Below are positions 19,201-63,907 of a stretch of DNA of 64,000 nucleotides, piece after piece. Below the pieces are notes generated by a model. The model did no database searches and had not been told where the DNA came from. It saw nothing but the letters and a program-made list of their open reading frames with translations. This DNA comes from Carposina sasakii (taxonomy: Eukaryota > Arthropoda > Insecta > Lepidoptera > Carposinidae), in contig CP053162.1 in the NCBI GenBank assembly GCA_014607495.2, positions 3,046,469 through 3,110,468 of the forward strand. The letters are read 5' to 3'. Every line of letters starts with the position of its first letter. Positions within the stretch are counted from its first letter, which is position 1. The position numbers were made by a program, and so were the translations under genes.

Positions 19201-22200
19201 TGTCCGGTTTTCTGCAAACCGAATATATAACGTTTTGATGTCGCAGAGACTACACTGTAAACACCTCGTATAAACCTTTAGTTTTGATTTCACCATGTAT
19301 GTATACCTTATGTACCCAACTACATAGCATAGTTGTGGTACAATTCAGAATTGTCCTGCGGCGATGTTGCAATGCACATTTTAAAATAGGCTCTGCTTAA
19401 AATTCATGTTTATACACATGCCTACTTAATGAGATCGAAATGCAATTCTCTCTGATTGCGGTCTACATAATACAATATTTGATATTTTTTTATTAAAATG
19501 CCTTTCATGTTGTTCGTTGATTTTGCAAATATTTCGAAATTGGCTGCTAACTTTTTTCTTAACTGTTATATTTTTAAATGTCATATAAAGCAAAAAGCAA
19601 ACTTTTGCCACAATTTGTTTAATGTCCTCACTGCAAATTATATCTCGTTGTAAACGCAAGACGTATACAGAAACACATAAACAGATACACAACTGCACAG
19701 TAGATAATAAAAATCGTGTTTAGTGTAAAGTAGATTTTATAATAAGTATATTGGAATCTTATTGTGATATCCAAAATGCGTCATAATATTAAATAAATTA
19801 AACTATTTATTACACCAAACCACTATACCGTAATCGGTTTTGTAACTACCTACATAAACTTTTAATGCAAGCTTGTTTCCATCGTGTGAGTGACTTCGCT
19901 ATGAAAGTGTACGCATCTTCGCAGTGAAGATCTACAATTAGCTTCCACGATGGACACAATCCTTCATACTAATCCCCCAGAAGTCCGAATAACCTTTACA
20001 TCTTTCGATCTTCGAACCATCAACAGAAACAGTTACGCAATTGTGTTCGTATTACCCCCAATGCAACCTCGAAGCAAATCTTTGACAATTTTTCGTTAAA
20101 ATAGGACTCTTCCCACATTAATGTGCCTTTGGGGCCATTGTTCGACTCTTTAGGGCTCTCGGGCCTGGCTTTATATGCCCGGCTTTTCCGTTTATGTGTC
20201 ACCTTGGATTTAGAATTCGCTGACTCAAAGCTTTTGCAGGAATTATTTTGATGGTTGGACGAACTTTGTGAAACGTTTTATATTCTATCTTCAAAGTTAA
20301 CGGTTCATTTATATTAATTAAAATTATACCCACTTAAGTAGATACTAATTTTAGCTCAAAGGTAAAATCATAAAGAAAAATTATTGGATTCTTTTAAATT
20401 CTCATCCATTATACCAACAAGATAAGCCTCTTTAGCGCTTAATGTTCACAAAAAGGTTTTTAATAAACACAAATTCAAGATGAAGCATAAACTGGTGAAA
20501 TTCTTCGATTGTTCAGTCGTACGGAATGGTATTTCAACTCTGCAGTTTTTCCTGATGCTACGCTTGTATACATGTATACCGTCTTATGTATTCCTTCTTT
20601 CGTTATCTTAATATTGAACACAGATTCTATCATATTTTCGATTGTGTGCGTGTTTTAAAATGATGTCCGCTGCTCTGTGATGTTGGCTTGCGACTATCTT
20701 ACGTTTTGGGCTGGCTATATATGCTTCTATGATAAATCTTTTTTACAATACTTATTTTATTGTCTACTAATAATTATTATGATTCCTTAAAATTATTACT
20801 AACGGTGCGTAAGTTGAGCTCCTTTAAAAAATCTTCAGAGATTTTACCATAACACTGTTGCAATGATCCAACATGGATTTTTGATATTTAACTGTTTTAT
20901 CTTTTGATTTGTTATTTAAAACTTTCCTATACCTAAAGCATATATTTATAAATTTTTTTAAGCGAATAAAATTCCTTGTAAAACTCGCAATTTGTTTAGA
21001 CAGGGAAAACATATATTGTTAGGTATATTAAAGGCTAAACCTACCAGATTTATATGCCATTGCAAATTAAAATAGGCCAGTGACAAAAGAGAGCTCAAAT
21101 TACATATCAATAACTGTAACTAACTCACAAACTATTCTAAGCAACATAAATCACTTAAATCCCGCTGTAGACCCAATCAGCTAGCAATATGTCTCTCTAC
21201 GAAGTAACTCTTCTTTGTAACATTATTTTCCGTCATCTCGTTATTCTCATGTCCCTCTTCCTCTATAACCATCAAGCAGGCGTTGATTGGCTCAGGGGAA
21301 TGCGACGACTTAACAAGGTCGATATAATTTACAGACTTATGGCACAAGTTGGTATCTTCAATAGGATGGGAGCCTATTGTCCACTACTGGACGTGGAGCT
21401 GCCTGAGTATCACGCGCCTGAAGACAAGAGGATGAGGCCTTTGAGACTGAGGAAAAAGATCTATGAATTCTTTCGGCGGCTCCATCATTACCAGAGTTTC
21501 CTTTATATTCGGTGAGTGGTAGATTAAGATATTGATTTAAAACACATTTGCTTGATTTTTTATTAAAGTAATAATATGGCGAGTTGGCTTCGGTTTAAAG
21601 TCCAGGGGCACCCCTCCACCCTAGCCGCTCACCAAATGTTGCCCCCTTTATGTACGCTCCGTAGCGTGACGGCCGCTTTCAGGGGGCCCATGAAATGAGT
21701 GGCGAGTCAAAAAACAATTATGAGACTTGGTTGTACATGGCAGGCGTCCGTTAGTCTCCTTCAATAGCCCAGTTATATTTGAGGATTGCCCATCGACCTT
21801 TCTCCATCGCCATCATCAGATCTGCACTCCAATAGTGATAAATGCACATGGCGGGGACCAACGCTGGATCTTATTGTGCGGTCGGTGATGGTATCCGCCA
21901 TGTGTATCCACACCATATTAAAGTTCTCTAAAAAGGGCCTCTACATCTTGGCCAAATCGGCCCGATGCACGCCTCATCAAATGACCGGGACTTCTGAGGT
22001 AGTCCCGAGAATTTAAACAGAGATACAATAATAATAATAAATTTTATTTGAAATCAAGTATTTACAATTCATAACCTTATCTAATATTTAACAGAAGTTG
22101 GTATTTGTAAAAGAAAAACACTTTGCCATAATACAAGGAGAGCTGAGTTTATAGCGGTCCCCACGCTAGGTCAGGCCTGTATCGTGGGGGCCAGAAAAGA

Positions 22201-25200: not shown

Positions 25201-28200
25201 GGCACCACGCGGCAAACTCTGCCGGCATTTATAATTATTGTGAATGGATTTGTCCCGGTTTCCTGGCGCGTTAATTGATAAATCAATACTACGTCAATGA
25301 CTTTCAACGGTATGTGCCGGTATATTAATACGTTAATATTACGCATTTATTGACCTATTTGTAGAATATGTATTTAAAACGTGCAGTGATATCATCTCCA
25401 GTGATTTCATTATTTGCTTGCCTGACCCTCTTCACATTCACAGACATGTAGTTTTATATTTTTTGTTTATTTTTAACAGTGTCTAGAACATGTAAATTGT
25501 TCTATAATTTGCCTAATTATGCTCAGTCATGACAGAGGGCGTCACCAAAGGGTGGCTTTTCATAGACATCTGACGTTAATGTCCGTGTGGCTCGTATATT
25601 TCAGGCACGCCATCCTTTGTTCTTGTTTGTTACAGTTTTAGGTTTTTTTATGTGTGTTTGAATAAACATGTTATCTATCTATACATATAATAAAAATGTA
25701 ACGGGACGCTGTCTGTACATGGAAGATATATGAGAAAAAATATTATAGGAGACCTTTATCAACGCAACAGTACCCAAAAGAATGATTTTTGGAATTGTTG
25801 TCTGTTTGTCTGTGCGTTTGTGCACGCTAATCTCAAAACGGCTGAACCGATTTCGATGCAGTTTTCAGGAATATATTGTGACAAGTCCCACTTAGCATAT
25901 AGGCTACTTTTTATCCCGGAAAGATGTTTTTATCTGGATAATTTCGACATTTTTTTTCTGTAGTCCACGCGGACGGTGTCGCGGGCGTCCACTAGTCATT
26001 AATATTAACATACAGCATAAGAGATCCCATAATCACGTTTAGCACGTTTAGCGGGACAGATGTTAAGAATTAGTGACAAGTTTATAAGTATGGTAGAATT
26101 CCCCAGTTCCTTAGTCGACTCTTACGACATGCACGGAAGGAAATGCGGCTGATGTACCTATTCTAGTGGAGTGAAGTTTTAATTAACTTGACCGTTGCCT
26201 TTCGTTAGCATTTTTCGAAGCTCCCGTCATAGAAATAAGTAAATCTTCTTTTTCTGTAGCTCAAACAATAACTAAGTACACGATTTAATTATTAATAGTT
26301 GCTTTAATAGTTCAACCGCTTTTATTACAAACAAATAATACTTAATTAAGAATCAGAAATCCTTTTTTAGTATTTATTCAGACCATGGTTTGAGGGTAGA
26401 TTGTGTGTAACATTTACCTGATGTCCACTATAATGGCTAGGGTGTGTTTTACGAAATAGTTCCTTTGAACAGTGGCGCTAGTTTATCTGTATATGACTAC
26501 ATTATCTATGTTACTGTAACAATAAATGTTAGTTCCGAAATCAGGCACGGGAGTTATTCTGTGAAACGGATACTAGTAGGGTTTGTATGCTGAAATAACA
26601 CTAATATTGTGCGTGTAGCAGACAAGGTATGCCTTTATTGCTACAGCCAGACTCTATGACCCTCTAGAGACGCGTTACAAAGGAAAACTATTCTGGTAAC
26701 TTTCTGGACTTGGATTCATAATACCTTTATGGGTTGACACTGAGTGAGGTCATGAAGATCAGCATTAGTTCCATAGGTAGGCATAGGTTATAAAAACACC
26801 AATATTCCGCGAATTTAGGGTACCTGTGCTACCCAGTTTACAATTGGATAAAAATCATGACATTTGATTTTATTTCTAAACTGGAGAGATACCAGCAAAA
26901 TCCCAAATACAATATGCTGAACTCCTTTCGATAAATGGCTTTATCGGGTATTACAATACATTTATATATTCATGTGTACCGATGTAATAAATTGCTTTCG
27001 AGCAGACGCGGAGTCTGTTCCTGAAAAACTTCGGGATAAGCCGATGGAAATCGCTAATGTATTGACTAAGACATGTTTGGTTTTCTCTTTAAATGTATTA
27101 AATATACGACAAACGAGTAAGTATTGAATTAAAGTTAGAAAAACATTATAATGCTCAAGTTAAAAATGAACATTATTATAAATATCTAGTAGGTAGAGAA
27201 CTTTACATACCTACCTAATCAGGGATTTTAGGGGGGTTAATGTGGTCAGGATAGTTTCCCTTGTTGGAATAAATGCTGTCATCTCATACATTTTTCAGTT
27301 ACCGGCAACTCGGCAAAAATACGCCGATATATGCTGGCGGAACTCGATGTTAAACTATGTTGTTTGTCTGCATTTTATTTGTTTAGTTCCTAAAAAATTG
27401 GAACAAACTGTTTTTTGATTTTCCGAGAATACACTTTTGATCCATATTTTGTGTCGAAAAACGACAAAGCTAAGCGACTAACTGCTGACGTACTCTACTG
27501 TTGTTACTTTTATGTACCTGCATAAATGTTTGTTACTATTTTACGCAAAAACTATAAACATATCTTGATTAAACTTTATAGTTATGTACTACCAACATCA
27601 GAATAACACATGGTAAGCTATACACGGTGTAAGTAAAATTAAGCGAAAAGCTATAAAAATAGTCCAGTATAATGAACGTATCCACAAAATTGAGACTCGA
27701 AATGTTTATAGAGTTCTAGAATCTGTTACACCGTATACTCTAAGCAATCAACATTACTTGGAGGTGGTTAACAAGGCCCTATATGTATTTGTTTTATTTT
27801 CAGATAGCGTACATTTTGTTCCTATTGATGTTTACGTACACAGTCTTAGTCAAGATGGACCTCACGCCATCGTTGCCGGAGATATATTCTATATGTTATA
27901 TATTAACGTTCTTGTGTGAGAAAATTAGAGAAATTATTACGTCCGAACCTGTTGCTATTAGGTATGTATCCATTTAAGTAATACATTATTAAAATACATA
28001 TAGGGGTACCTAATGTAATTCATTTCCAAATATTTTTACCTAGGTACTTTACCACGCTTCGAAAACATGAACTGTAGTTTTCATTTCTTATTTTAGAAAT
28101 AAATCCGTAATAAAAAAAAAATTTAAGACCTACGTAATCTCTTGATTCGCATTTCAATGCGACCATCCATATACTTCACTTCACATTTCGCAGAAGTAAA

Positions 28201-31200
28201 GTTTAAAATGGGAAACTCCTATCGGAATTGCGAATTTCCCAGCGCAAACAACAGCAGAAAGTTTATCGCATCTGAACATTCTGGAATATTTAATTGAAAT
28301 TAAAGAAATATTTGATATAAATCCAATGATGATTGATAAAAATTGTACTTTGAATTCAAATTTTTAACATAAGAATTCTGCTATCATCACGATCATACTG
28401 TTCATGTTTAAAAAAAAGCATTTCTCATTGAGCGTCAGCAAGCTTTGATAAACATTGTCTCAAATCATAAAATTTTTCAGACATAAGTTCAGTGTGTGGG
28501 CTTGGAATATGTGGAATACGTATGACGCTGGCTTCATAATCTTCTTCCTCGTGGGCCTGACCCTCAGGCTTAGAACCAACTCTATGGACGTTGGCCGAGT
28601 CATCTATTGTGTAGACATTATTTATTGGTACTTAAGGATACTGAATATACTGGGTGTAAACAAATATTTAGGTAAGTTTTGATTTTTATTTATACGATAG
28701 TCAATATAATTATCTATTTCACCTTAGCAAGATGAGATCTCAAGTTAATTTATGAATTTCTATTTTACGAAGTTCAGTATTTAACTTTCTTTCGGCTCTA
28801 AGCATATTCATATGAATATGGACGAAGAGTTCAGTAATACACTTCATAGAGTAAGAAACTGTACGATTAAAAGTTGGAATCAAGTAAAAAGTTTTGAGCG
28901 CCACGTTGGAAATTATTAATCCGAGAGGAATATAGATTAATGAATTTTCTGTAATTAATTAATGATTTCATGTTGTTCCATTAATCAGTATTATAACTTT
29001 TTGGAAATACTTGAAGTTCTATAAATACCAACAATACTTCACAGTTGCCGTAGAAAATTATCGAATTCTCGACTATTGTAGGTACTTTTCGTACACAATA
29101 TGCCATGAGAGATAGCAGTAAATTTCTTATCAAAATAATAATTCCACGAAACTACAATCTGAATACAATATTGTTGTCCCCAGGTCCACTAGTCACAATG
29201 ATGGGTAAGATGGTGAAGAACATGATATACTTCGTGGTGCTATTACTGGTGGTGCTCATGTCGTTCGGAGTGGCGCGACAAGCTATACTCCACCCCGACA
29301 AAGATGCTAGTTGGTATTTGATTAGAGAAGTAAGTACTTTTCACTATCTTGAATTTTGTTGAGTTTAGGGTTCCGTAGTCAAGAATCTTCTCTGAGTATA
29401 CAAATCTGTAATTTGCCATGAGAAACAAATTTGGGAAAAACAATGAGAATTGGAATTAAACGGCAAAGTTGTCACAGATTTACCAATGATAATGTACTAC
29501 GAAACCCTAGATTGCATTGGCTACATTAAAAATGATACTAATCGAAATATCTAACCAGCAATAAGTCCATTCTGTCAATACTAACACCTTCCAGGTCTTC
29601 TTCCAACCGTATTTCATGTTGTACGGAGAAGTATTTGCCGAGCAAATGGCTCCACCGTGCGGCCAACCTGGGCTGGAGGATTGCCGGGTTGGCCACTGGG
29701 TGCCTCCAGTGGTCATGAGCGTCTACCTGCTCATCGCCAACATCCTCCTAGTTAACCTTCTCATAGCCGTCTTCAATAACATCTTCATTGAAGTCAATGG
29801 GGTGTCGCACCAGGTGGACTGCCAACCTTGCAGTGTTCAATGTTGTAGTATTTGATGTTTTGATTCTCCTATGCCTGTTGCGAGGTTCTGTTGAAGTATT
29901 GAGGTGTTGTGGTTTAGGTTTCTAGCTAAGTAAGAGTAGTGGTATTTTTAGTAGATTTTATTAATGTTGCACTATCAAATAGAAATATTTATTATCGTTA
30001 TGTCATAAAAAATCATTTTGGTCAAAATAATTTTACTTTTTATAAATCATTTATTTACCATTTAGCTATATATTATTATTTTATCATATCCTTATTTTGT
30101 TATTAGTTTTACGTCACTTTTTTAATTTTTAGTTAGAGCACTTTCTATTTGGTTGTCCGTAGATATTCTTTCAACCATACTTCATGCTTTATGGCGAAGT
30201 GTTTGCGCCCGACATTGACCCCGTCTGCAGCCAGAACGTTGGTGATCAACCGTGCGTCACCGGAAGGTGGATCACTCCCGTCGTGATGACCATCTACCTC
30301 CTCGTGGCCAATATACTAATGATAAACCTCCTCATTGCCGTTTTTAATAATATCTTTAATGAAGTCAACGAAGTCTCGCATCAGGTTTTCTTTTTTGTTT
30401 TTGCCTTTTATTTTTTTTATGATCGTCTATAGCGTATGAAAATGATTTGGGATTGATGGAATGTATCGAATTGACATTACAAATACGTTATGTGTCGATT
30501 TTTTAATAACATACCCAATGGATGATCGCTGATTAATTTCAGGAAGGTTACAGAATCGTTAATTAATATTTTTAGTTCATTTTTTAGTTATTATTATGAT
30601 GTGTAATAAAATACAAATGGAGGAAAATTTATAAATGTCGTTTATTTAGATTATTTCTATACTAACGAAAATATAAAGCACCTAAACTAAAATATAAACG
30701 TCAATGATTCTGAAACAAGCCTTTATCGAGCGCTTTTGACTGTACAGCCAAGAAAGGATACTGTAACTGTATTTGTATCCAATTAACATGAAAATGTTTT
30801 AGATAAAGTAGACTAAATCCATGATTTTATTGACACTAAAAATGCGGGGAATCCCCGAAGGTGTTATTTATATGATCAGAAGCGCACGTTCTTTAACCCT
30901 TTTTATTCGCGACTTTATTTTATTTTTCGTTATGACCGTAAATGTTGCATGCTACGTACTTTATATGGTAATTTTATTTCAAATTACCAAACTATATTGT
31001 CTGTGGGAGCGGGCCCCCCTTTCTGGGATTTTAGATAGTTAGCTTGTAGATGGAGTAATCTTTATGTTCTAACTATATGTGTGTATGAAATAGTATATTT
31101 AGTAACGTAAATAAATTCGTATTAGAAACTAAGCTTAAAAAACATTATAAGTATTATATTAGCACGAGGACATACTTTCAATGTAATTAATTTAGTGATT

Positions 31201-34200
31201 TCATGACTTCAATACAAATTGATAAAATTTGAGACACAATTTTAAAAAATCGCAATTAGAGACACTTGCTTTCTAGAATCGGTTTTTCTCTTCTAACCTT
31301 ATACCAATTCTTCAGGTGTGGATGTTCCAAAGATTTACAGTGGTGATGGAATACGAACAGAAACCAGTGCTTCCGCCGCCAATAATAATATTTTGCCATA
31401 TATACCAAACGTGTAAGTGGGTGACGAGAAACGTTTCTCACCAACGTTTCCAGTATGATAATGGACTGAAGTTGTTTTTGGAAAAAGAAGATATGGAGAG
31501 GCTTTATGACTTTGAGGAGGAGTGCGTTGAAGGCTATTTTAGGGAACAAGTAAGATTTTTTTATTCTTTATTTACATGGAATATTTAGGAACATTGTGGT
31601 ACCGGCCGGGATTATAAAAGTAAATGTACCTACTAAGACGACGTTTCCTCTAAAAAGATTTCTTCTGAAAAATATTAATTCGAAGTAATGCAATAAATTG
31701 AATTTACTTTCAGGAAATAAAATTATCAAATTCTTTAGAAGAGAGAGTTAGAAATACAACAGATAGAGTAGAACATATCACAACCAAAATGGAAGATTTG
31801 AATCAGAAAGCGAATTGCCAAATACAGTCTATGCAGGTAATGTTAATATGGATTTCACCTATTTCAAAAGTATAGCCATATATGGATCAAATACGGAGAT
31901 ACGGATAAATCAAAATGTTATTTTAAAATATCTCCTTAATATTTCAGAGCGTAGAATTTAGGTTAAGAAAACTAGAAGACGTAGCAGAACAGACCATGAA
32001 TCACTTAGCGGTGATTCACCGGTTTATGGCAACCCATCCGTCGTTAGTCAACCGAGGGTCGACCGATACCTTGGGTCCACCTCCACCACCTTTCCAGGCT
32101 GGTGCAGCCAGGTTGCGAACTGCCAGTGATAGATCTGAGGTACATAATATATAATGATATCTACATTATCTTTCTACCCTAACTATTCCCCTTAATTTGA
32201 AGCCAGCCCAATACCTTTTTTCCATTCATATTTTTTTGTTATAATCTCATTCAGTGAAAATATAATTTTGCCATACTAGTACAGTATCTCAATAGTTAGA
32301 GATGTTTCATAATGGAGTATAATTTCAGGTGCTATCAGACAGTGAGACAGGTGTCGCCAGGTTCGTGGTGCGTCCTGTGCAAGAAGAGGATGAACAGATG
32401 TCTCAACACTCTGATGTAAGTATAGAACAGTTATATAACAGCTATATTTTATACCTATATTATACCTCTCTTTCATAGTAAGATTCTATGACCTCTAATC
32501 GTCTAATGTCAAGAAATGTGTAACTCTTGGAAAAATGAGGCCGACTTGGTATTTTAGCAAAACTCATGCATTCGCTTCAGAAGCATGTTTTTATGACAGT
32601 CATTTCAGTATTGTCTAGTAGAATCAGATTCAGAGCAAAAGTATTTGCAATAGGATTTCTCTGTTATTCAGACCGGAGCATCTAGTGAACTGCAATATTC
32701 ATTTGTCGGTTTATAATAGTTTTGTAATTTCGTCATAGACATGTAGCCACTAAAGAACTTCTTAGTTGTTAATCATATTATATTATTATCTATCTTCTCC
32801 ATAGCCTCCAACGCGCGTTCTCCATATACAGGTATATAAAATAAGCTTTCCCCTCACTCGCATCAACTCAGCTTTATCTCACTCAGCATAGCAATCTAGA
32901 CAGTTTGAACATTATTTCAATTTGTTTTATCCTGAAAAATATTCATTATAATTTGCGATTTATTGTCAGAGTCACAGTTTTGTTCTTTCACATGAATTAC
33001 GTTCTTTAATTTTATGCTAACCATTATTACTGTCCTTAAATTAACCGACAATGTGAGGGCACAATATCTTCCTCACTAATCGTAACATTGCCATTATACA
33101 GATGTGAAATAAACCTACGGGATTTGAAATCGTTCATCAGTAAAATATTCCTGACAGGGTGCACGGTTTTCTAGCTAGAATGTTTGTGTTGCACTATATA
33201 CATATTTTTAAAATACTTTTGCACTGTCTCTATTTGTTTTTGTTTGTATTTTGTTTATTTAGTCTCATTGTTGCTATTGTATCTGTGTGTGTGTAATCAC
33301 CAAATAAAAGCGTATTCTATTCTATTCAATATACTTTACAGCTAATTAAATTTGCTACAAGTATTATCATTGACAAATTGGTAGTATCATATAATTATGA
33401 GATTTCAGAAATCCATCGTTTGACTATGTTAGTCTAATTGTACCCAACTAAGCTTAACTTGCGCTACTCTGCAATTATAAGAAACTTAAGTATCTTATCA
33501 AAGTTTTCCCTTGAGTACTCGTATTCCCGCGAACCGCATGATTCCATTACGTAGATTTATAATTCATATACAAAGTTTTAGTATGAAAATATTGTGAGTA
33601 ACGTTTCTACTTTAAAATAGTGTTTCCTATCACGTTTTGCTATCTCTGACATTAAGTGAAAATGCAGAAGTTTCCAACTTTCTTGCGCTCTGATATTTTA
33701 CCCAGGATGAAGAATAGTAAAATAATATGTTCGTATAAATTCAAGAAAAACTATAATAATATTCTTTCCTAATAAGGTAATTGGTAGTCCCTTTCTTCTC
33801 CGAATATCGATCGTCCGAAAATCATAATCCCTAACAAGTTTGCTGTAAACATCACTTTCCATAATGTTCGCGTAAGTATACGAAATTGTATATTACCTAA
33901 TCGTCTTTAATTCTAATACTTTGGTGCCACAAAATCAGGTGCTATAATGATTAGATGTCCTAATTTTTCTTGCTATAAAGTCACATGTCCTATGTGTTAT
34001 AATGTATAACTAGTGGACGCCCGCGACTCCGTCCGCGTGGACTGCAGAAAAAACAAAATGTCGAAATTATCCGGGATAAAAACATTTTCCCGGGATTAAA
34101 AGTAGCCTATATGTTAAGTGGGACCTGTCACAATATACTCTTGAAAACTGCATCAAAATCGGTCCAGTATATGTCGTGGCGCATTCATGAAATGGTCGAT

Positions 34201-55554: not shown

Positions 55555-58500
55555 CTTGGGAAATAATATTAGTGACGGTATATAAATATATAGATAGATA
55601 CATATAAATACATAGATAGAAACATCCATGACTCGGAAACAAACATCGATATTCATCACATCAATGTTGTGACTGACAAATGACTCGAACTCAGCACCTA
55701 TGACGCGGCGGATAGGGTACTGACCCTGTCCAACTACGCCAATCGGTTGTCAATATTAAATATATAATCTATTCATCTATATACATATAATAAAATTGTA
55801 ACGGATTGATGTTTGTGCACGCTAATCTCAGAAACAGCTGGACCTATTTCGATGCAGCTTTTAGGAATATATTGTGATAGGTCCCACTTAACATATAGGC
55901 TACTTTTTATTCCGGGAAAATGTTTTTATCCCGGATAATTTCGACATTTTTTTTCTGCAGTCCACGCGGACGGAGTCGCGGTCGTCCACTAGTACATGAA
56001 ATAAATTCAATCGTACAGGCCCGTGACCATCGCCAATTCTGTAATTGCTGTAAAAGTTACCTGATCTGGCGTAGACTCGGTGTTCCACAGTGAATTCCTC
56101 ATGATTTTCCCCGGGCCGGTTTTCGAGTTGACCAGTTTGAGTTGAATCCCCGGCTCCGCTACGGCCCTAAATGGCTCCTGCTGCCAATATGTCTGCGGAT
56201 TCTTCTTCCACATCACTACGTAGAAACGCTTGTTGTTTTGGTATCTAAAAAATATTTTTATATTAATGACAGAAGTCACCTCAAACTGAAGAAAACGGTT
56301 GATGATAGACTACGTTTATCCAGAAGATATCATAAACTCTAAGATCATATCTGATAAGGCTAATGTTACCAAAGAGACTCTACCCCATTTCTAACCTAAG
56401 GCAGATATGAAAATATGAAAAATTATACCTATATGTCTTCATAAAAATACTTCAGCCAGAACCCTTAAACTAGACTTAAATGGCCATGGACATTGGACCT
56501 GAATATGACCATGGGAATTCAATTTCATCTAAACCAACCAACTTCCCGATACCCACCCAAATATAAATCCAACGTAATCATCATCAATAGGTGTGTTAAC
56601 AAACAGGGTTCCTTCAAAGTCGACTCCTCCGAACCATTCGAAGCCAACCGCTAGACCTGGATCTGAGTTGAAGGTTTGAAGTATCTCAGCTCCTTGGTTA
56701 TCAATCTGCCAGTTCGGATCCAACTGGGTCTCACCTTCGGGGTCTAGGCGAACGGTCATGTAGTTCCTATAAGAAATATTCAAAGACCTCCTTTACCTTC
56801 AAACGGGATAGGTTTTATCATAATTTTACCAGTTACTAAGTAAATATGCCGTCGAGAAAACAGAATAGATGATTTAAGTGGTTTTGCAATAGCAGCTACT
56901 AGTATGTACATGTTGGATGATACGCGCTCTGATCTGAATTCTCATCCCGATTATAATTGTGATAGCAATCATAAGTTTTCAGGTTCGTCAGTGGAAGTTA
57001 TAGCCCCGACCGGGGGCAAACACTATTTGTTGCGGCTTCTACTAAATTTAATTATTTATTACAAATTTGCTTATAGTTTTCATCAGGCGTTAAATGTATT
57101 CTCATTATAAGATAGTTACACATTGTGTTGTTAGCCTCTTCTACCTTTGTCCGCCATTCGGACCACACGTTTGTTAACCTATATTCATTCAAAATTAAAG
57201 TCATGTTATAGACTTGTGGATTTTATTTAAATCTTAAAAATCTACCAATGTTCCTGAAGGAACACTATTTAAAAATATAAACTTTCTGATACCAATTAAT
57301 AATAGAACTGAATAATAACTAATGGTCTTTATAGTAGTATTGCGTTACCTGAAGTCAGTTCGGTAGATGTGTGAATTGTTGGGACAGTTATCGAGTTCGT
57401 TTATAACTTTGTCACCATCGAAGTCGTTATCGCAAGCGTCACCGACACCATCACCTGAAAAAAAAAGAGATATCTTTATATTTCTCTCATTTTATGGACT
57501 TGGGAGTTGTCGACAAGCTGCTATCAGGCTGACAGTTCATGATGATGATCACTATGTGATGACTCAATAAAACTTAACAAAATAGGGAAGAGACATAATG
57601 ACTTTTCGGAAGACGCATTCAACGAGTGATTATTACTATGAACTATCACAAAAGATAGCCGATAGGCCTGCTGACATGCATTTCTCTCCTTTAACCTCTG
57701 CGAAATAATCCCAATACTCACGATTAACATCAGCCTGGTCCCTATTAGCAATCAGTGGACAATTATCATCGACATCGAGAATGCCATCGCCATCGTCATC
57801 GTCATCGCACGCGTCCCCTCGGCCGTCATTGTCCACGTCCTGTTGGTCACTATTGGCCAGGTTTAGACAGTTGTCCAAACCGTCTTGAATACCATCCCTG
57901 GTAAATAAATGAAGTTACTTTAGAACAATTAATAGTCATAATGTACAAAAACTGCAGAATATGTAAAGCTTTTCATTCAGAGTCTGTTTGTTTAAAAGCT
58001 TAATTTTACTTTATTCTGTTATCGTCATACTAACAGCCAATTTTAATTACCGCTCTTGAGACTCGGTAATTAAAATTGGCTATTATAGATCCCTTTGGCC
58101 TATACGGTTGCCGTGATACAGTCATTATCAATCTCTACCAGATATGTTGAATCTTGGCATCCTTTCTTAGTGCTCCCTAACAATTCCTTTGGCAAACTAT
58201 AGGTAGATAATTGAGTTTGAGTAAATCTGAAATAAAGTAATTTTATTGATGTAAAGGTATATACAAACTGGTCTCTATCCACGTCACTATCACAGGCATC
58301 TCCAACACCATCTCGATCGGCATCCTCCTGAAGTTGGTTCCTAACCCGCGGACAGTTATCACAAGCGTCTCCTATGTAGTCCTCGTCTATGTCTGATTGG
58401 TCCGGGTTGTATACGCGGGGACAGTTGTCTGATTCGTTAGGAATTTCTGGAGAAAGAGAGGTATTTCGATTTAGGTATGTTAGTTTACTATGGTTTTTTT

Positions 58501-61500
58501 TCCAAGGACAAAAGATCCATGCTGTTTCTCGAAATTTTCTAGGAGATTTTTTTCAAAACACTCTAAAAGGAAAAAACAATTAAGCTCTATTTTTTTGTAA
58601 AATTAAGTAGTCGAGTTCCTTTCCCGATTAGATTATTCACCTTACACATTTGCATCAAATATAGTATTCAAAATACGTTTTTAGATTTGGCATCACATAG
58701 TAATGGGTCCCAAAGTGCAACCCTGAGGCACGTCCCCTAACAGAACCTTGAAAATACATAAACAAAATCACTAATACTCACTGTCATTATCCATATCAGG
58801 GTCACAGATATCTCCAAGTCCGTCCTGGTCAGCATCCTCCTGTCCAGGGTTGTATCTTCTGGGACAGTTATCGCAGGCATCCCCTATCTTATCCACCCCA
58901 TCCTCATCTCTGTTCGATTGGTCAGGGTTGGCAGTCAGGGGACAGTTATCCTAAAAGTTGGTTATTCGTGTCTAATCACAAATTTTGAGAATTACGATAA
59001 TATTATTATATCAAAATCAAATTTCCACAACAGATTTTTAAATTTTAAAGTAACAAGTTACTGAAATTTTAAAGTTACTATACACTGTTCTTATGTATTC
59101 TTTCTTATATTAAAAAATATTTTCTTCCAATGGTTAGATAGGTCTATTTTAAAGATAAAGTTGATGCTGTCTCTATCTTGATCAAATCTTAGACAAGAGC
59201 AAATTCATCAGTTAGAACTTTTAGCCTATTGATAAATCTTAAAAGCTGATGATGTCTCCATGTGGAGCACGCTTTAGGGAAATTCAGCCTGCAGGCTATC
59301 TGACCATTGGGTAAAACGGCCCCTTAGCGTAATTAGCGGTATACTTTTTCGGATATGCTATTCTATTCTATAGGTATACTTACCGGATTATTAGGGATAC
59401 CATCGCCATCCGCATCCGGGTCACATTTGTCCCCGAGCCCGTCCCCGTCCACATCCTCCTGCCCCGAGTTGGACACGTCCGGACAGTTGTCCCTCGCGCA
59501 CGCGCGCTGCTCACACGCGAGCTGCGAGTCCGGGTATCCGTCCAGGTCGGAGTCCGGCCCGCATACCGTGCCGTTACCCGCCCAGCCGGTCTGGTCATAG
59601 TTGTTGATATGAATACCCTTTTGCAGCACATTAACCTAGTCCCACACTAAGGTCGATCCTGACTGTGGGCCCACCGATTGCATGTCACTAGAGAGCTATA
59701 GTCTGGTGGACATAGTCAGCGCCGGCCCGAAGTAAATTTTAGAATGGAGCGAGATCCAATAATGGTGCCTCTCCTGTTTGCTCCTAATAATATATACCTA
59801 TATCTTTACCATTTAGGTGCCCTCTAGGATTTGGCGCCTGGAGCGACTGCTCCGTTTGCCGTACGGGCGGGCCGGCCCTGGACATAGTTATTAATATGAA
59901 CAAGCCTTATTAGTCTAATGATAGTACATTAACACCCTTTTACAACACATTAACAACTCACACTTAGATGAGTACGTTCTACCAGTCATGACCTACGCAG
60001 CCGAGACGCGGAACCTGACGGTCGGGGTCCATCAAACACATAGCTAATACATGTCAGTATTAGAGAGCTATGGAAAGAACTCGGGATCTCGCTGATGGAC
60101 TTAAACAAGATTATCCGGCAGACGACAAAGCTACGTCCTCCTGTCCCGAGTTACTCCTTCACACTTCACAATAATATAGCTTATATATCAGAATAAGACA
60201 GACTTCAATTCAATATTCTTGGAAAATATATTTATCTCGGATAATTTCAACGTTTTGTTTTTCCTGCACTAGTATTTGTATAAATGTATGTATATATTTA
60301 TCTACAACTCACCGCACAAACACACTGCTGTCCGTACCCACACACAGCATTATACCGTCGACACTCGAGCGGGTCACACGTCCTCAACGCCTCGTATTCT
60401 GAGTAGCACGGCTGAGTGGAGTTCACGTAAAAGTTACCCCCGCACGGTACGCAGCTGTATGAACCCTGGGCAATAAGTGATGAATATTATGCTATGCTAA
60501 AAGGGTAGTAGGGTCTTTGGTGACCCTGCAATTCTGATTCCCCCATTTGGAAACTAATATACAGGATGCTTTTTTGTGGCCACCTTTAACGAAGGGTACG
60601 TATTCTATACATGAAATAAAGTAAGTTTATGCCAAAAAAAATACTGGGAAATTTTTTTTTTATTTTTTTTTTTTATTTAAATTCCTTGATCGTGCGAAAT
60701 TTATAGTGTCTAGTGTTTATGTTAGTTTTTTTATAGACAGATATTAATTATTTTTCGTGAAAAAATCCTGCTACGCGCGTCTATGTGCATTTATGCAGAA
60801 AAACGCAGTCTATTTACTCAACTTTGGACCCTAATATTTTGGAAACCAGACACTTCCCAGGTATGCTTCCATGGAGAAAAATGATCGTGATGATGAGGAG
60901 ATTCCGTAGTTTTCGGGAACGTTGACGACCAAAAATCACCCTGTATATGTATGTACGAATAATTGTATAAACTCCATCCTATACAGAGTGTTTGAATTTA
61001 TCCCGGAAGACGCAAAATATAGGTACCTAAATATAATATATGATTCTGTACCAACAGATGTATCAAAAGACGACATAAGCCCCATACCCCAGAACTTGGT
61101 GTAGAACAAAATTAAGGGAATTTTTTATATAGGTACCCTACGAATATAACTTACATGTGTAATAACACAGTCTGCTTCTTGCGCATTGTGCTAAAATTAT
61201 CACGGATAATCTGGCATTACATAAATATAACGATATAACCTACGTTTGATGGACATTGGTTGGTAAAAAGCTGTAACAGTGCGCCTTTCAAGCGGATTCG
61301 AGGCGCACCTGACTAATCTCCGTAGAGTTTGGCCGCCTTGACCGAAATACGGTCTTAGACATTTTATTATAAGTAGTAATAGTTTTTTATTCGTTTATTC
61401 TAGATTTATCTTGAATTTTTTAATTACTGTATTAGGATAACTCGTGCCGCGTGGTACCGGCAGAGTAGAATTCGTACCACCCCATGTCTACCCGTGGGTA

Positions 61501-63907
61501 TCGTACAAGGCGATTAAGGGTTTCCGTGAGGTGGGCACCAGCACCTCCCGTGTTGACAACATAGTCCAAAATACAAACTGCGATCACCAACCCGCCTGCC
61601 CAGCGTGGTGACTATGGGCAAATACCCCCATAGCAGTCTTGTGGCGTGTCCTGGGGGAGGCCTACGTCCAGCAGTGAACTGCAATAGGCTGATGATGATG
61701 ATTAGGATAACTCACAGGAGTATTAACGCAGAGCCTGCTTCGTGCGCACTGAGCCAAGCCTTCCGCACATTCATCTATATCGGTACAGTATTCCTTCCTC
61801 CTCTCATTGCCGGCACCACTCCATCCTGAACTACCGGTGTAACTGAAAAAGAAGTTTCAATAAAAGTAACGCAAATGTTTTCAAACATTTAACTAAAACA
61901 AGTTTATGGTCGATTCTGACCGTCACTCTTCAACATAAACCTAATCTTAGTCATGTCTATCTCTCTCCGTTCTTAACATAAATGGCTGAGATAGAAAGGG
62001 AGAGGTAAGACTAATTTACGTTTAGGTTTAAGTATGACGGTCAGAATAGACCATACTGAGGTTTCTAGAAGTGACAACTTTATTTTTAAGATTAACAACA
62101 CAAGTAAGTTTACTATATTCTGTTTCTTTCAGTGCACATGATTCTATTAATTGTGTTTCAAGTTGTGTTTTGTATTTGCTGGAAGAAAACTCTTGAAGAG
62201 ATAAGCTCGCATTTGTACATTCCCTGTGTAACTATGTAAAGTCACTATATAGTCCAATTTTTGTGTGTACAATAAATAATACAAGGTTCATACAATCTTA
62301 AAAAATAAACATGTGATTTCTATTCTTTTTATAGATATGTTTTCATATTTTCATGATATTTCCCCTAATATACCTATCGTGTATAGGTATATTATAGCTA
62401 GTTATAATTATATATACTTATAATAACAAGAGTAGACCTACCCTTCCGGACAAGCTCCACAAATGAATCCACCTTCCTTATTGCGACACGACACCAGGTC
62501 ATCGCAGGGCCGGATCAGATCACACTCGTCCATATCCTGACAGGCGACTCCTACAAATTACCACAATACTTAGACAATGCTATATAGTACGTTGTCTTAA
62601 TATTTCCACCAATAGCGGTTAAACTTCATCGTGTGATTTATCTGGACGTGGGTCGTCCTTAGCGCAAAAATACACTTCGGGTTGTGGGCCTTGGGGCAAC
62701 CCCCGTGCCCGGGCATAATTCTCGGCGGGCAATAACTTTTATGGCCCTTAAAGGGGGCCACATGGGTCAGAGAGCCTGACCCATTTGAGAAGCACAAGAT
62801 TCAGCTGGCCGGGGGGACGCGGGCCGGACTAGTCGACGCCTGGTATTACCAGGGTGCGTCCGGCCACTTAAGCTGCCTCTGCCGTCGGCCAGTACACGAA
62901 AGAAGAGGATGGATAGAAGAAAAATAAGATGGAAGCCCTCTTCCCCTACAAGGAAGGTAGTAAAACAAGGTAAGTAAATAATAATCTCAGATTTAACGAA
63001 CGCGCATACCTAAATGACGGTATAAAGTTTTGGAATAAATTGGAAACGTTTCGATGACGAGTCGCTATCGATTCGATTAGAATATAGTTATCAGCTATGT
63101 CTCCTTCCGTGCATGTCGACTAAGGATAATAAACTTGTCACTGATCATTTACATCTATCCCGTGATAGTGGGCTCCCCTTTATGATCCTACAATAATGGT
63201 TTCCCCAATTTCGGGAACGATTCATTTCACCATGATCATCTTTAGGGTGCATATTCGCGGTTGATCATTGGACACTAAACAGTCGCCTATCTCAAAACTT
63301 TGAAAACCAGGATTTGAGGAAGAAATACCAGGACATTTCGATTAAAAGACAGGACTATACATGTGCGAGCCCAGTGACAGTACGATTGGAGGAAGTTAGT
63401 GGCGTGCGAATTTCAAAACATAGGTCTTTAACACATTCCACGCCGGTGACTACGTATTTGCTTCTTTTAGGCTTTTTAGATGTGCCGTTGACGCTTATTT
63501 GCCCGATGTTTTGACCCTTAGAAAATCTGCCGACAGCGAATGTGTCATGACTTTAAAATTCAGGGCGATGCTTAAAAATTATCCGGAACAGCCCAGGACA
63601 CCCAAAAAAACAGGACATGTCCTGGGAAAACAGAACGGTTGGCAACCCTAGCCTATGGTCACCCAGGTGATCAAAGTGGAATAGATCCGAGTGTGTGTAT
63701 AAGTATATGTCACGTATGTAGAAAAGCAATAATACTAAGTAACACTTGAAATCTCAACAGACTCAAAACAAAAGATTTTTTCCTTACCATTCCACTCGTA
63801 TCCCCTGGGGCACCCTTCACAGTCGTAGTACGGGTTGGATCCTTTAGGTATACACCTGCGTTCGCCGCATGGTCTACGGGAATCGCATACGTGCTGGCAT
63901 TGCTCCT
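55317..63907 (-). CDS. Tsp: Thrombospondin/COMP-like secreted glycoprotein, partial (gene span)
   Basis: Twelve minus-strand exons join in phase. In order they give EGF-like and Ca-binding EGF domains ([29 protein letters not shown]), the junction [12 protein letters not shown] that opens the type 3 repeats, a run of Asp-rich DNCP repeats, and the lectin-like C-terminal domain ([47 protein letters not shown]). No properdin-type (TSP1) repeats are seen, so this is a group B, pentamer-type thrombospondin like Drosophila Tsp and vertebrate COMP. Such proteins act in the extracellular matrix, bind Ca2+ along the wire and bind integrins at muscle-tendon junctions. The signal peptide, N-terminal domain and coiled coil lie beyond the right edge. 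The final few codons are not resolved. The symbol is by homology. Confidence 0.93.
55555..56060. other. Tsp intron containing a Helitron-like element
   Basis: Most of this intron is the CTAG-type element at 55776-55993. The rest holds TA-rich sequence. Confidence 0.6.
55776..55993 (+). mobile_element. Non-autonomous Helitron-like element, copy 3
   Basis: It starts TCTATATACATATAATAAAA and ends GTCGTCCACTAG before T. The body matches 25676-25996. Confidence 0.55.
56061..56244 (-). CDS. Tsp: Tsp exon: C-terminal domain part 2
   Basis: It encodes [20 protein letters not shown] and ends [12 protein letters not shown] in phase 0. Acceptor TTTTTTAG, donor GTAACT. Confidence 0.95.
56557..56766 (-). 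CDS. Tsp: Tsp exon: C-terminal domain part 1
   Basis: It enters and leaves in phase 2, encoding [40 protein letters not shown] and DDDYVGFIF plus two bases. The donor GTGGGT is chosen because it joins as FGYQNNKRF. Confidence 0.94.
56767..57348. other. Tsp intron
   Basis: No gene or repeat recognised. Confidence 0.55.
57349..57454 (-). CDS. Tsp: Tsp exon: last type 3 repeat
   Basis: It enters in phase 1 and leaves in phase 2, encoding [20 protein letters not shown], then [14 protein letters not shown] and two bases of Arg. This is the TDFR boundary with the C-terminal domain. Confidence 0.94.
57722..57897 (-). CDS. Tsp: Tsp exon: type 3 repeats with RGD
   Basis: It enters in phase 2 and leaves in phase 1. 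It encodes [38 protein letters not shown] and [15 protein letters not shown]. An RGD tripeptide is coded at 57813-57821. Confidence 0.94.
57898..58268. other. Tsp intron with a perfect inverted repeat
   Basis: AGCCAATTTTAATTACC (58035-58051) and its exact complement (58065-58081) flank a 13-bp loop. Confidence 0.7.
58269..58446 (-). CDS. Tsp: Tsp exon: type 3 repeats
   Basis: It enters in phase 1 and leaves in phase 2, encoding [40 protein letters not shown] and CDSDVDRD. The donor is GTTTGT. Confidence 0.93.
58782..58950 (-). CDS. Tsp: Tsp exon: type 3 repeats
   Basis: It enters in phase 0 and leaves in phase 1, encoding [20 protein letters not shown], then [20 protein letters not shown] and CDPDMDND. 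Confidence 0.94.
58951..59383. other. Tsp intron
   Basis: Nothing recognised. Confidence 0.55.
59384..59635 (-). CDS. Tsp: Tsp exon: end of EGF region, first type 3 repeat
   Basis: There are 84 codons, phase 0 both ends. It encodes [56 protein letters not shown] and [25 protein letters not shown] marks entry into the calcium-binding wire. Confidence 0.95.
59636..60312. other. Tsp intron, probably element-derived
   Basis: GC-rich blocks such as GGGCGGGCCGGCCCTGG and AGTACGTTCTACCAGTCATG suggest old repeats. No gene was supported. Confidence 0.4.
60313..60465 (-). CDS. Tsp: Tsp exon: EGF-like, Cys-rich
   Basis: There are 51 codons, phase 0 both ends: [20 protein letters not shown] and ending [10 protein letters not shown]. 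Confidence 0.92.
60562..60943. mobile_element. TA-flanked MITE with CAGGRTG ends
   Basis: The left end CAGGATGCTTTTTTGTGGCC and the right end GACGACCAAAAATCACCCTG are imperfect complements, flanked by TA. The interior has long T runs and no ORF. Confidence 0.5.
61446..61702 (+). repeat. Dispersed repeat GCCGCGTGGTACCGGC, copy 4 (full)
   Basis: It begins GCCGCGTGGTACCGGCAGAG and ends ACTGCAATAGGCTGATGATG, including CCAGCGTGGTGACTATGGGC. It is the longest copy and lies in a Tsp intron. Confidence 0.7.
61716..61842 (-). CDS. Tsp: Tsp exon: start of Ca-binding EGF domain
   Basis: It encodes [20 protein letters not shown], then DIDECAEG to LCVNTP, leaving in phase 0. It joins the next exon as VNTPGSYSC, the standard EGF-CA arrangement. 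Confidence 0.93.
61905..62055. repeat. Palindromic MITE-like repeat
   Basis: TATGGTCGATTCTGACCGTC at 61905 is the near-complement of the right end (GACGGTCAGAATAGACCATA, 62036-62055). Arms of about 35-40 bp enclose about 75 bp. Confidence 0.65.
62442..62550 (-). CDS. Tsp: Tsp exon: EGF-like domain
   Basis: It enters in phase 1 and leaves in phase 2, encoding [20 protein letters not shown] and ending FICGACPE plus two bases (Gly). The D-M-D-E-C start is a Ca-binding EGF signature. Confidence 0.92.
62600..62985. repeat. GC-rich element fragment
   Basis: A GC-rich island (GCCCGGGCATAATTCTCGGC, AGCTGGCCGGGGGGACGCGG) interrupts an AT-rich Tsp intron and ends in GGTAGTAAAACAAGG. It is probably a LINE 3' region; no coding signature was found. 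Confidence 0.35.
63085..63215 (-). repeat. SINE-like repeat (ACGACATGC family), reverse copy
   Basis: CAGCTATGTCTCCTTCCGTG, GCATGTCGACTAAGG and ATTTACATCTATCCC match the family at 10444-10676 and 13600-13795. Confidence 0.55.
63437..63550 (+). repeat. Dispersed repeat shared with 43485-43610
   Basis: GACTACGTATTTGC, CTTTTAGGCTTTTTAGA and TTAGAAAATCTGCCGACAGC repeat the order seen after the Trpm stop codon. Confidence 0.6.
63788..63907 (-). CDS. Tsp: Tsp exon: EGF-like domain (first visible)
   Basis: It encodes [20 protein letters not shown] and ends CPRGYEWN plus one base (Gly). Acceptor TGTTTTAG, donor GTAAGG. Confidence 0.9.

Follow-up and report, generated by a model that had tools for sequence, protein, structure and literature searches.

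The Trpm gene of the lepidopteran Carposina sasakii contains two adjacent homologous exons, A and B, each of which encodes the channel segment from the pore helix through S6. The best explanation of the pair is an old tandem duplication with one exon used in each functional mRNA, giving two TRPM pores from one gene, of which that containing A would be altered in its ion handling. We consider this reading likely. The pore-to-S6 exon of lepidopteran Trpm would have been duplicated in tandem long ago, and the single gene would yield TRPM channels with two different pores, perhaps including mixed tetramers. Exon B would retain the usual insect outer pore with its acidic IDP motif, the outer pore of A would be derived, and the choice between them would tune ion handling by tissue or stage. 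We infer strict exclusivity of the two exons, regulation of the choice between them and the direction in which conductance changes.

The pore exons of Trpm

The stretch of DNA analysed (64 kb, termed the window) contains Trpm on the + strand, extending from ~7.1 kb to ~43.4 kb, its exons having been identified by visual inspection and reading frame. Among the matches listed, its best protein matches are lepidopteran. For Pfam analysis the pieces from S2 to the coiled coil were joined, carrying either A or B. The Ion transport domain PF00520 scored 48.6 bits with A and 52.3 bits with B, and the TRPM tetramerisation domain PF16519 scored 29.3 bits, all above the Pfam cut-offs. Searched against solved structures, the joined S5, A and TRP-box translations matched TRPM3 chains at ~1e-68 and TRPM7 at ~1e-53. 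Judged by its domains and by structure alignment, the predicted protein is a TRPM channel.

Starting at the 5′ side, the channel domain comprises the coding part of the S1 exon (27804–27962), the S2–S4 exon (28481–28671) and the S5 exon (29184–29329, with the donor GAA/GTAAGT), all on the + strand. The same strand continues with exon A (29595–29813; 219 nt, 73 codons), the A–B intron (29814–30162; 349 nt), exon B (30163–30384; 222 nt, 74 codons) and the TRP-box exon (31316–31549; VWMFQRF...). Exon A is preceded by ...CCTTCCAG and its 3′ end reads CACCAG/GTGGAC; exon B is preceded by ...GTCCGTAG and ends with CATCAG/GTTTTC. Both have AG/GT flanks, an open frame of phase 0-0 and no internal stops, and the three introns around them are GT–AG. 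A perfect TACTAAC branch-like motif is located at 29579–29585, its branch A lying just 10 nt upstream of the AG of exon A, which is unusually near.

The two adjacent phase-0 exons of 73 and 74 codons that the original prediction described are thus present at exactly the expected coordinates. It had also assigned both to the same segment, and this is borne out by alignment with the TRPM3 structure, in which the segment forms the pore helix, filter, outer loop and S6, up to SHQ before the TRP helix, and by the similarity of the two proteins (50 of 74 residues identical, 68%; BLASTP 1e-35). Using tblastn against the 64 kb window, the pore exon protein gave exactly two matches, and the proteins of the S1, S2–S4, S5 and TRP-box exons one each. 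The S5 and TRP-box exons are therefore single as claimed, with boundaries agreeing at 29329 and 31316, and there is no third copy of the pore within the window. With exon A as a DNA query, the only match in the whole genome (399 Mb, 31 contigs) was exon A itself.

Synonymous sites have reached saturation between A and B (pS = 0.82, dS not computable), and nonsynonymous divergence is low (dN = 0.25, pN = 0.21). The duplication is therefore an old one, across which the encoded protein has been maintained. Both the duplication and the protein constraint are well beyond chance.

One exon of the gene is irregular. The exon encoding the linker and the start of S1 (21280–21511) is broken in frame in the assembly. 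Compared with lepidopteran homologs in a frameshift-tolerant alignment it has four frame shifts and several codon-sized insertions, with a middle section identical at 26 of 26 residues; two control exons aligned in the same way had no frame shifts. This is either a local assembly error or local decay. Downstream of Trpm, on the minus strand at ~57600–61900, there are ORFs with many DxDxDG-type repeats; from this motif we take them to be a thrombospondin/COMP-type gene.

Conservation and outer pore of exon A

Three protein searches returned the best 120 of 2414, 120 of 1993 and 120 of 2029 matches, and the pore motif was scored in the 207 distinct proteins that these contain. The original prediction had proposed a search for the duplicate exon in other insects, and among these listed proteins exon A is found in at least 16 other lepidopteran species. 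B alone is displayed for a further 25 lepidopteran species. This is weak evidence that A is lacking there, and the same caution applies outside Lepidoptera: with database clustering at 90% identity, a level that A and B isoforms exceed between them, A can be hidden in a cluster represented by B.

Twelve species having both exons (that of the window and 11 others) were compared. Over the 66 species pairs available for each exon, identity averages 96.8% among A copies and 87.9% among B copies, and the mean identity between A and B within a species is 69.3%. In a tree of 61 hand-chosen rows, lepidopteran A forms one clade (support 98/97) and lepidopteran B another (100/96). The stem of A is long (0.85) compared with that of B (0.24). 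The long stem and the high identity of A fit a burst of change after the duplication, followed by strict conservation. By the 12-species comparison, in which it is more conserved than B, exon A is no decaying copy. This bears on the suggestion that one of the copies is a relic, or is unexpressed, in Carposina sasakii. The broken 21280–21511 exon in the same assembly lends that idea some colour, but with both exons open and flanked by AG/GT, and with A the better conserved, we find it barely credible.

The differences between the two pores were located by counting positions from the first residue of the pore exon. YGEV and both loop cysteines are present in A and B alike. Positions 16–20 of B are PDIDP, resembling the common insect outer-pore motif DxIDP or xDIDP. 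In A these are EQMAP, followed by VPP, and EQMAP is present in all 27 lepidopteran copies among the matches listed. There are 15 columns in which A and B have no residue in common over the 12 species, including 16–18, 31, 32, 34, 36, 37, 42, 47, 53, 65 and 69, and the changes are densest in the outer pore adjoining the filter. Position 17 is variable among insects.

Position 19 is aligned with the aspartate of QIDPPC in TRPM3. It is Asp in 182 of the 201 non-A copies in the listed proteins (the remainder being Ala in nine, Tyr in five, Asn in three and Glu in two), and Asp is missing from all 27 A copies. B itself is PDIAP in Nymphalis io and three Vanessa species, with Ala at position 19 (nine copies of one sequence: P0004–P0006, P0009, P0011, P0012 and P0037–P0039). 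Because of these B exons, the loss of the Asp is not sufficient to define A, and because of that of Nymphalis position 19 falls outside the 15 columns.

From the spacing and the letters of TRPM7, positions 12, 17 and 19 probably correspond to TRPM7 residues 1047, 1052 and 1054. In the accessible parts of two TRPM7 papers, E1047 and E1052 of the mouse channel, or E1052 and D1054 of the human channel, are assigned to the binding of Mg and Ca, and both proton conductance and activation by acid are lost in the D1054A mutant (PMC10576435, PMC4197629). Since A lacks an Asp at the position of D1054, altered divalent or proton behaviour would be expected. We infer a change in the A pore, either of divalent permeability, probably a reduction, or of proton regulation.

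Exclusive use of the exons could instead alter gating, the response to drugs or ligands, folding or trafficking, and leave ion selectivity as it is. A and B do differ consistently beyond the filter region, at positions 42, 47, 53, 65 and 69, which lie in S6 or past its end, and B of Nymphalis and Vanessa is also without the outer-pore Asp. In TRPM3 the responses to steroid, heat and drugs also differ among pore-loop variants, as far as the accessible part of that study describes (PMC7959729). We nevertheless think this explanation unlikely, given that the changes between A and B are concentrated in the outer pore beside the filter.

Inclusion of one exon or both

The original prediction was that each mRNA contains one of the two exons. 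A and B have the character of adjacent homologous exons by which mutually exclusive pairs are recognised, with lengths of 219 and 222 nt, phase 0-0 and 68% identity. The four possible joins (A, B, A+B and both skipped) all keep the frame without stops.

Annotated proteins of relatives bear on the question in both directions. Among the 207 listed proteins, A occurs alone in seven (from seven species) and in tandem with B in 20; a single non-A motif is present in 179, and one spider protein has two non-A motifs. The psyllid Diaphorina is scored as a one-motif protein, its second copy lacking the motif used. The Manduca proteins P0026 (841 residues) and P0053 (842) differ solely in the A/B segment; the Papilio xuthus isoforms X3 and X4 differ in that segment and have one other differing site. 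These pairs suggest mutually exclusive splicing, matching its expectation. The A and B proteins of Chrysodeixis differ in the A/B segment and also elsewhere.

The prediction of one exon per mRNA is supported by the annotated A and B isoform pairs, and the 20 of the 27 listed A-bearing proteins that contain both exons weigh against it. The latter come from 10 species, and include X1–X6 of Nymphalis io. Choristoneura P0001 and P0021 differ solely in whether B is included, and Danaus chrysippus P0002 and P0034 in whether A is included and in an insert of six residues. Taken at face value, the tandem models would argue against exclusivity, and for a TRPM normally carrying two pore–S6 units in series, with A joined to B in frame. 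They may represent real mRNA. They may equally be artefacts of prediction, because A+B keeps the frame and a predictor would be expected to write such models without RNA support. Isoforms with A only and with B only are annotated, the Manduca pair differing nowhere else, and from the topology of TRPM channels a second re-entrant pore and S6 following the first S6 would displace the TRP helix to the opposite face of the membrane. Normal inclusion of both exons thus seems to us very unlikely, and A and B are probably mutually exclusive.

Several possible causes of exclusion were considered. Frame loss upon double inclusion is ruled out, as A+B is in frame without a stop, and a very short intron is unlikely at 349 nt. 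The A–B intron folds no better than its shuffled sequences (z = +1.49; 94 of 100 shuffles fold at least equally well), and strong intron structure is rejected as the cause by this test. Donor strength was calculated as U1 pairing energy for ten donors of Trpm. Neither the donor of A nor that of B fits GTRAGT, but a signal based upon weakness of both was dropped, as their values (−7.6 for A and −5.6 for B) are within the range of the gene (−4.5 to −11.7).

A candidate RNA pairing, offered as a lead only, has its 5′ arm within the A–B intron (29971–29985, + strand) and its 3′ arm in the pyrimidine tract of the B acceptor (30142–30156, + strand). The arms are complementary at 13 of 15 positions, which is reached by two of 300 shuffles in a test made after the pairing had been seen. 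Such a pairing could mask the acceptor of B, and so favour A. A protein factor acting at the splice sites is an equally possible alternative.

Origin and relation to known systems

Two pore copies are also present in predicted proteins of the psyllid Diaphorina citri (P0049 and P0070). Copy 2 is canonical and copy 1 lacks the Asp, with Tyr at that site; Cacopsylla P0121 displays a pore like copy 1 alone. Psyllid copy 1 resembles lepidopteran A in missing the same Asp, and VPP and NILLVNLL are common to both. It differs in having a longer loop and Tyr rather than Ala, and the psyllid pair comes from predicted proteins. Single displayed pores with Tyr at position 19 are found in the fungus gnat Pseudolycoriella (P0123) and the phylloxeran Daktulosphaira (P0135), and these could conceal a second pore exon. 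Spider P0085 was not counted among the duplicated cases, since an identical stretch of S5 is part of its repeat, which suggests an error of the model or of the assembly.

Removal of four long rows (spider, a wasp, mealybug and thrips) left a tree of 57 rows with 74 usable columns. There lepidopteran A groups with psyllid copy 1, weakly supported at 84/13, and with the fungus gnat added at 60/83; the joined long branches are flagged. Topology tests rejected none of the three groupings tried: a clade of lepidopteran A and B (p-AU = 0.41), psyllid copies 1 and 2 together (0.42), and A, B and caddisfly (0.30). On this tree lepidopteran A and psyllid copy 1 may have a common origin or may have converged. 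We put forward as a tentative possibility, rather less probable than not, that insects, at least Lepidoptera and psyllids, acquired a further type of TRPM pore through duplication of the pore–S6 exon, exon choice replacing the divalent and monovalent specialisation of multiple genes in vertebrates. The extra copy would have lost the outer-pore Asp each time, to Ala in Lepidoptera and to Tyr in psyllids, whether by convergence or as the relic of one ancient duplication. The Tyr pores of the fungus gnat and phylloxeran hint at more duplicated cases.

Alternative splicing within the pore is known in the same channel subfamily, in the alpha1 and alpha2 forms of mammalian TRPM3, and the original prediction drew this comparison. 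It holds for the outcome, as pore-loop splicing changes divalent permeability, which is strongly reduced in alpha1, and fails for the route, which in the accessible part of the study is a 12-residue loop insertion with no duplicated exons (PMC7959729). In Trpm a whole pore–S6 exon would be swapped, and the insect pair is characterised here by its sequence.

Exon 8 of the insect nAChR alpha6 gene covers the pore region. Exons 3 and 8 of that gene, which are mutually exclusive, resemble A and B in being tandem duplicated within an insect ion channel and kept across orders, with one exon the most conserved, according to the part of the source available (PMC1919356). The nAChR is a pentameric ligand-gated channel, unlike TRPM, and its splicing is proven by cDNA where ours is predicted from genomic and protein sequence. 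One exclusive exon pair of CACNA1C covers an S6 segment. CACNA1C, also a cation channel, carries homologous exons that are spliced in a mutually exclusive way, as described in the accessible text of PMC5740500. It differs in being a vertebrate voltage-gated calcium channel, with the exons in one of four repeats.

Searches of the PMC literature gave no description of an insect TRPM with duplicated pore exons. In the accessible part of a TRP paper, only alternative, mutually exclusive first exons are described for Pieris rapae TRPM. The available text on Drosophila trpm gives 29 common and six alternative exons, and a requirement for TRPM in Mg control (PMC2865541). An insect TRP survey records one TRPM gene in each of six insects, and has nothing on TRPM splicing in the part available (PMC2753570). 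The A and B isoforms are already present in the public annotation of relatives. Tandem duplicated, exclusive pore exons are a known kind, and the lepidopteran Trpm case appears to be undescribed within the PMC literature.

The swap of one exon could give a single gene channels that handle ions differently. A and B differ at or beside the sites of divalent and proton action in TRPM7, and the pair may provide a natural test of how the outer pore of TRPM channels selects ions. A second pore of this kind, which among the Lepidoptera compared is more conserved than the canonical one, would imply that studies of lepidopteran TRPM have so far covered just part of the channel.
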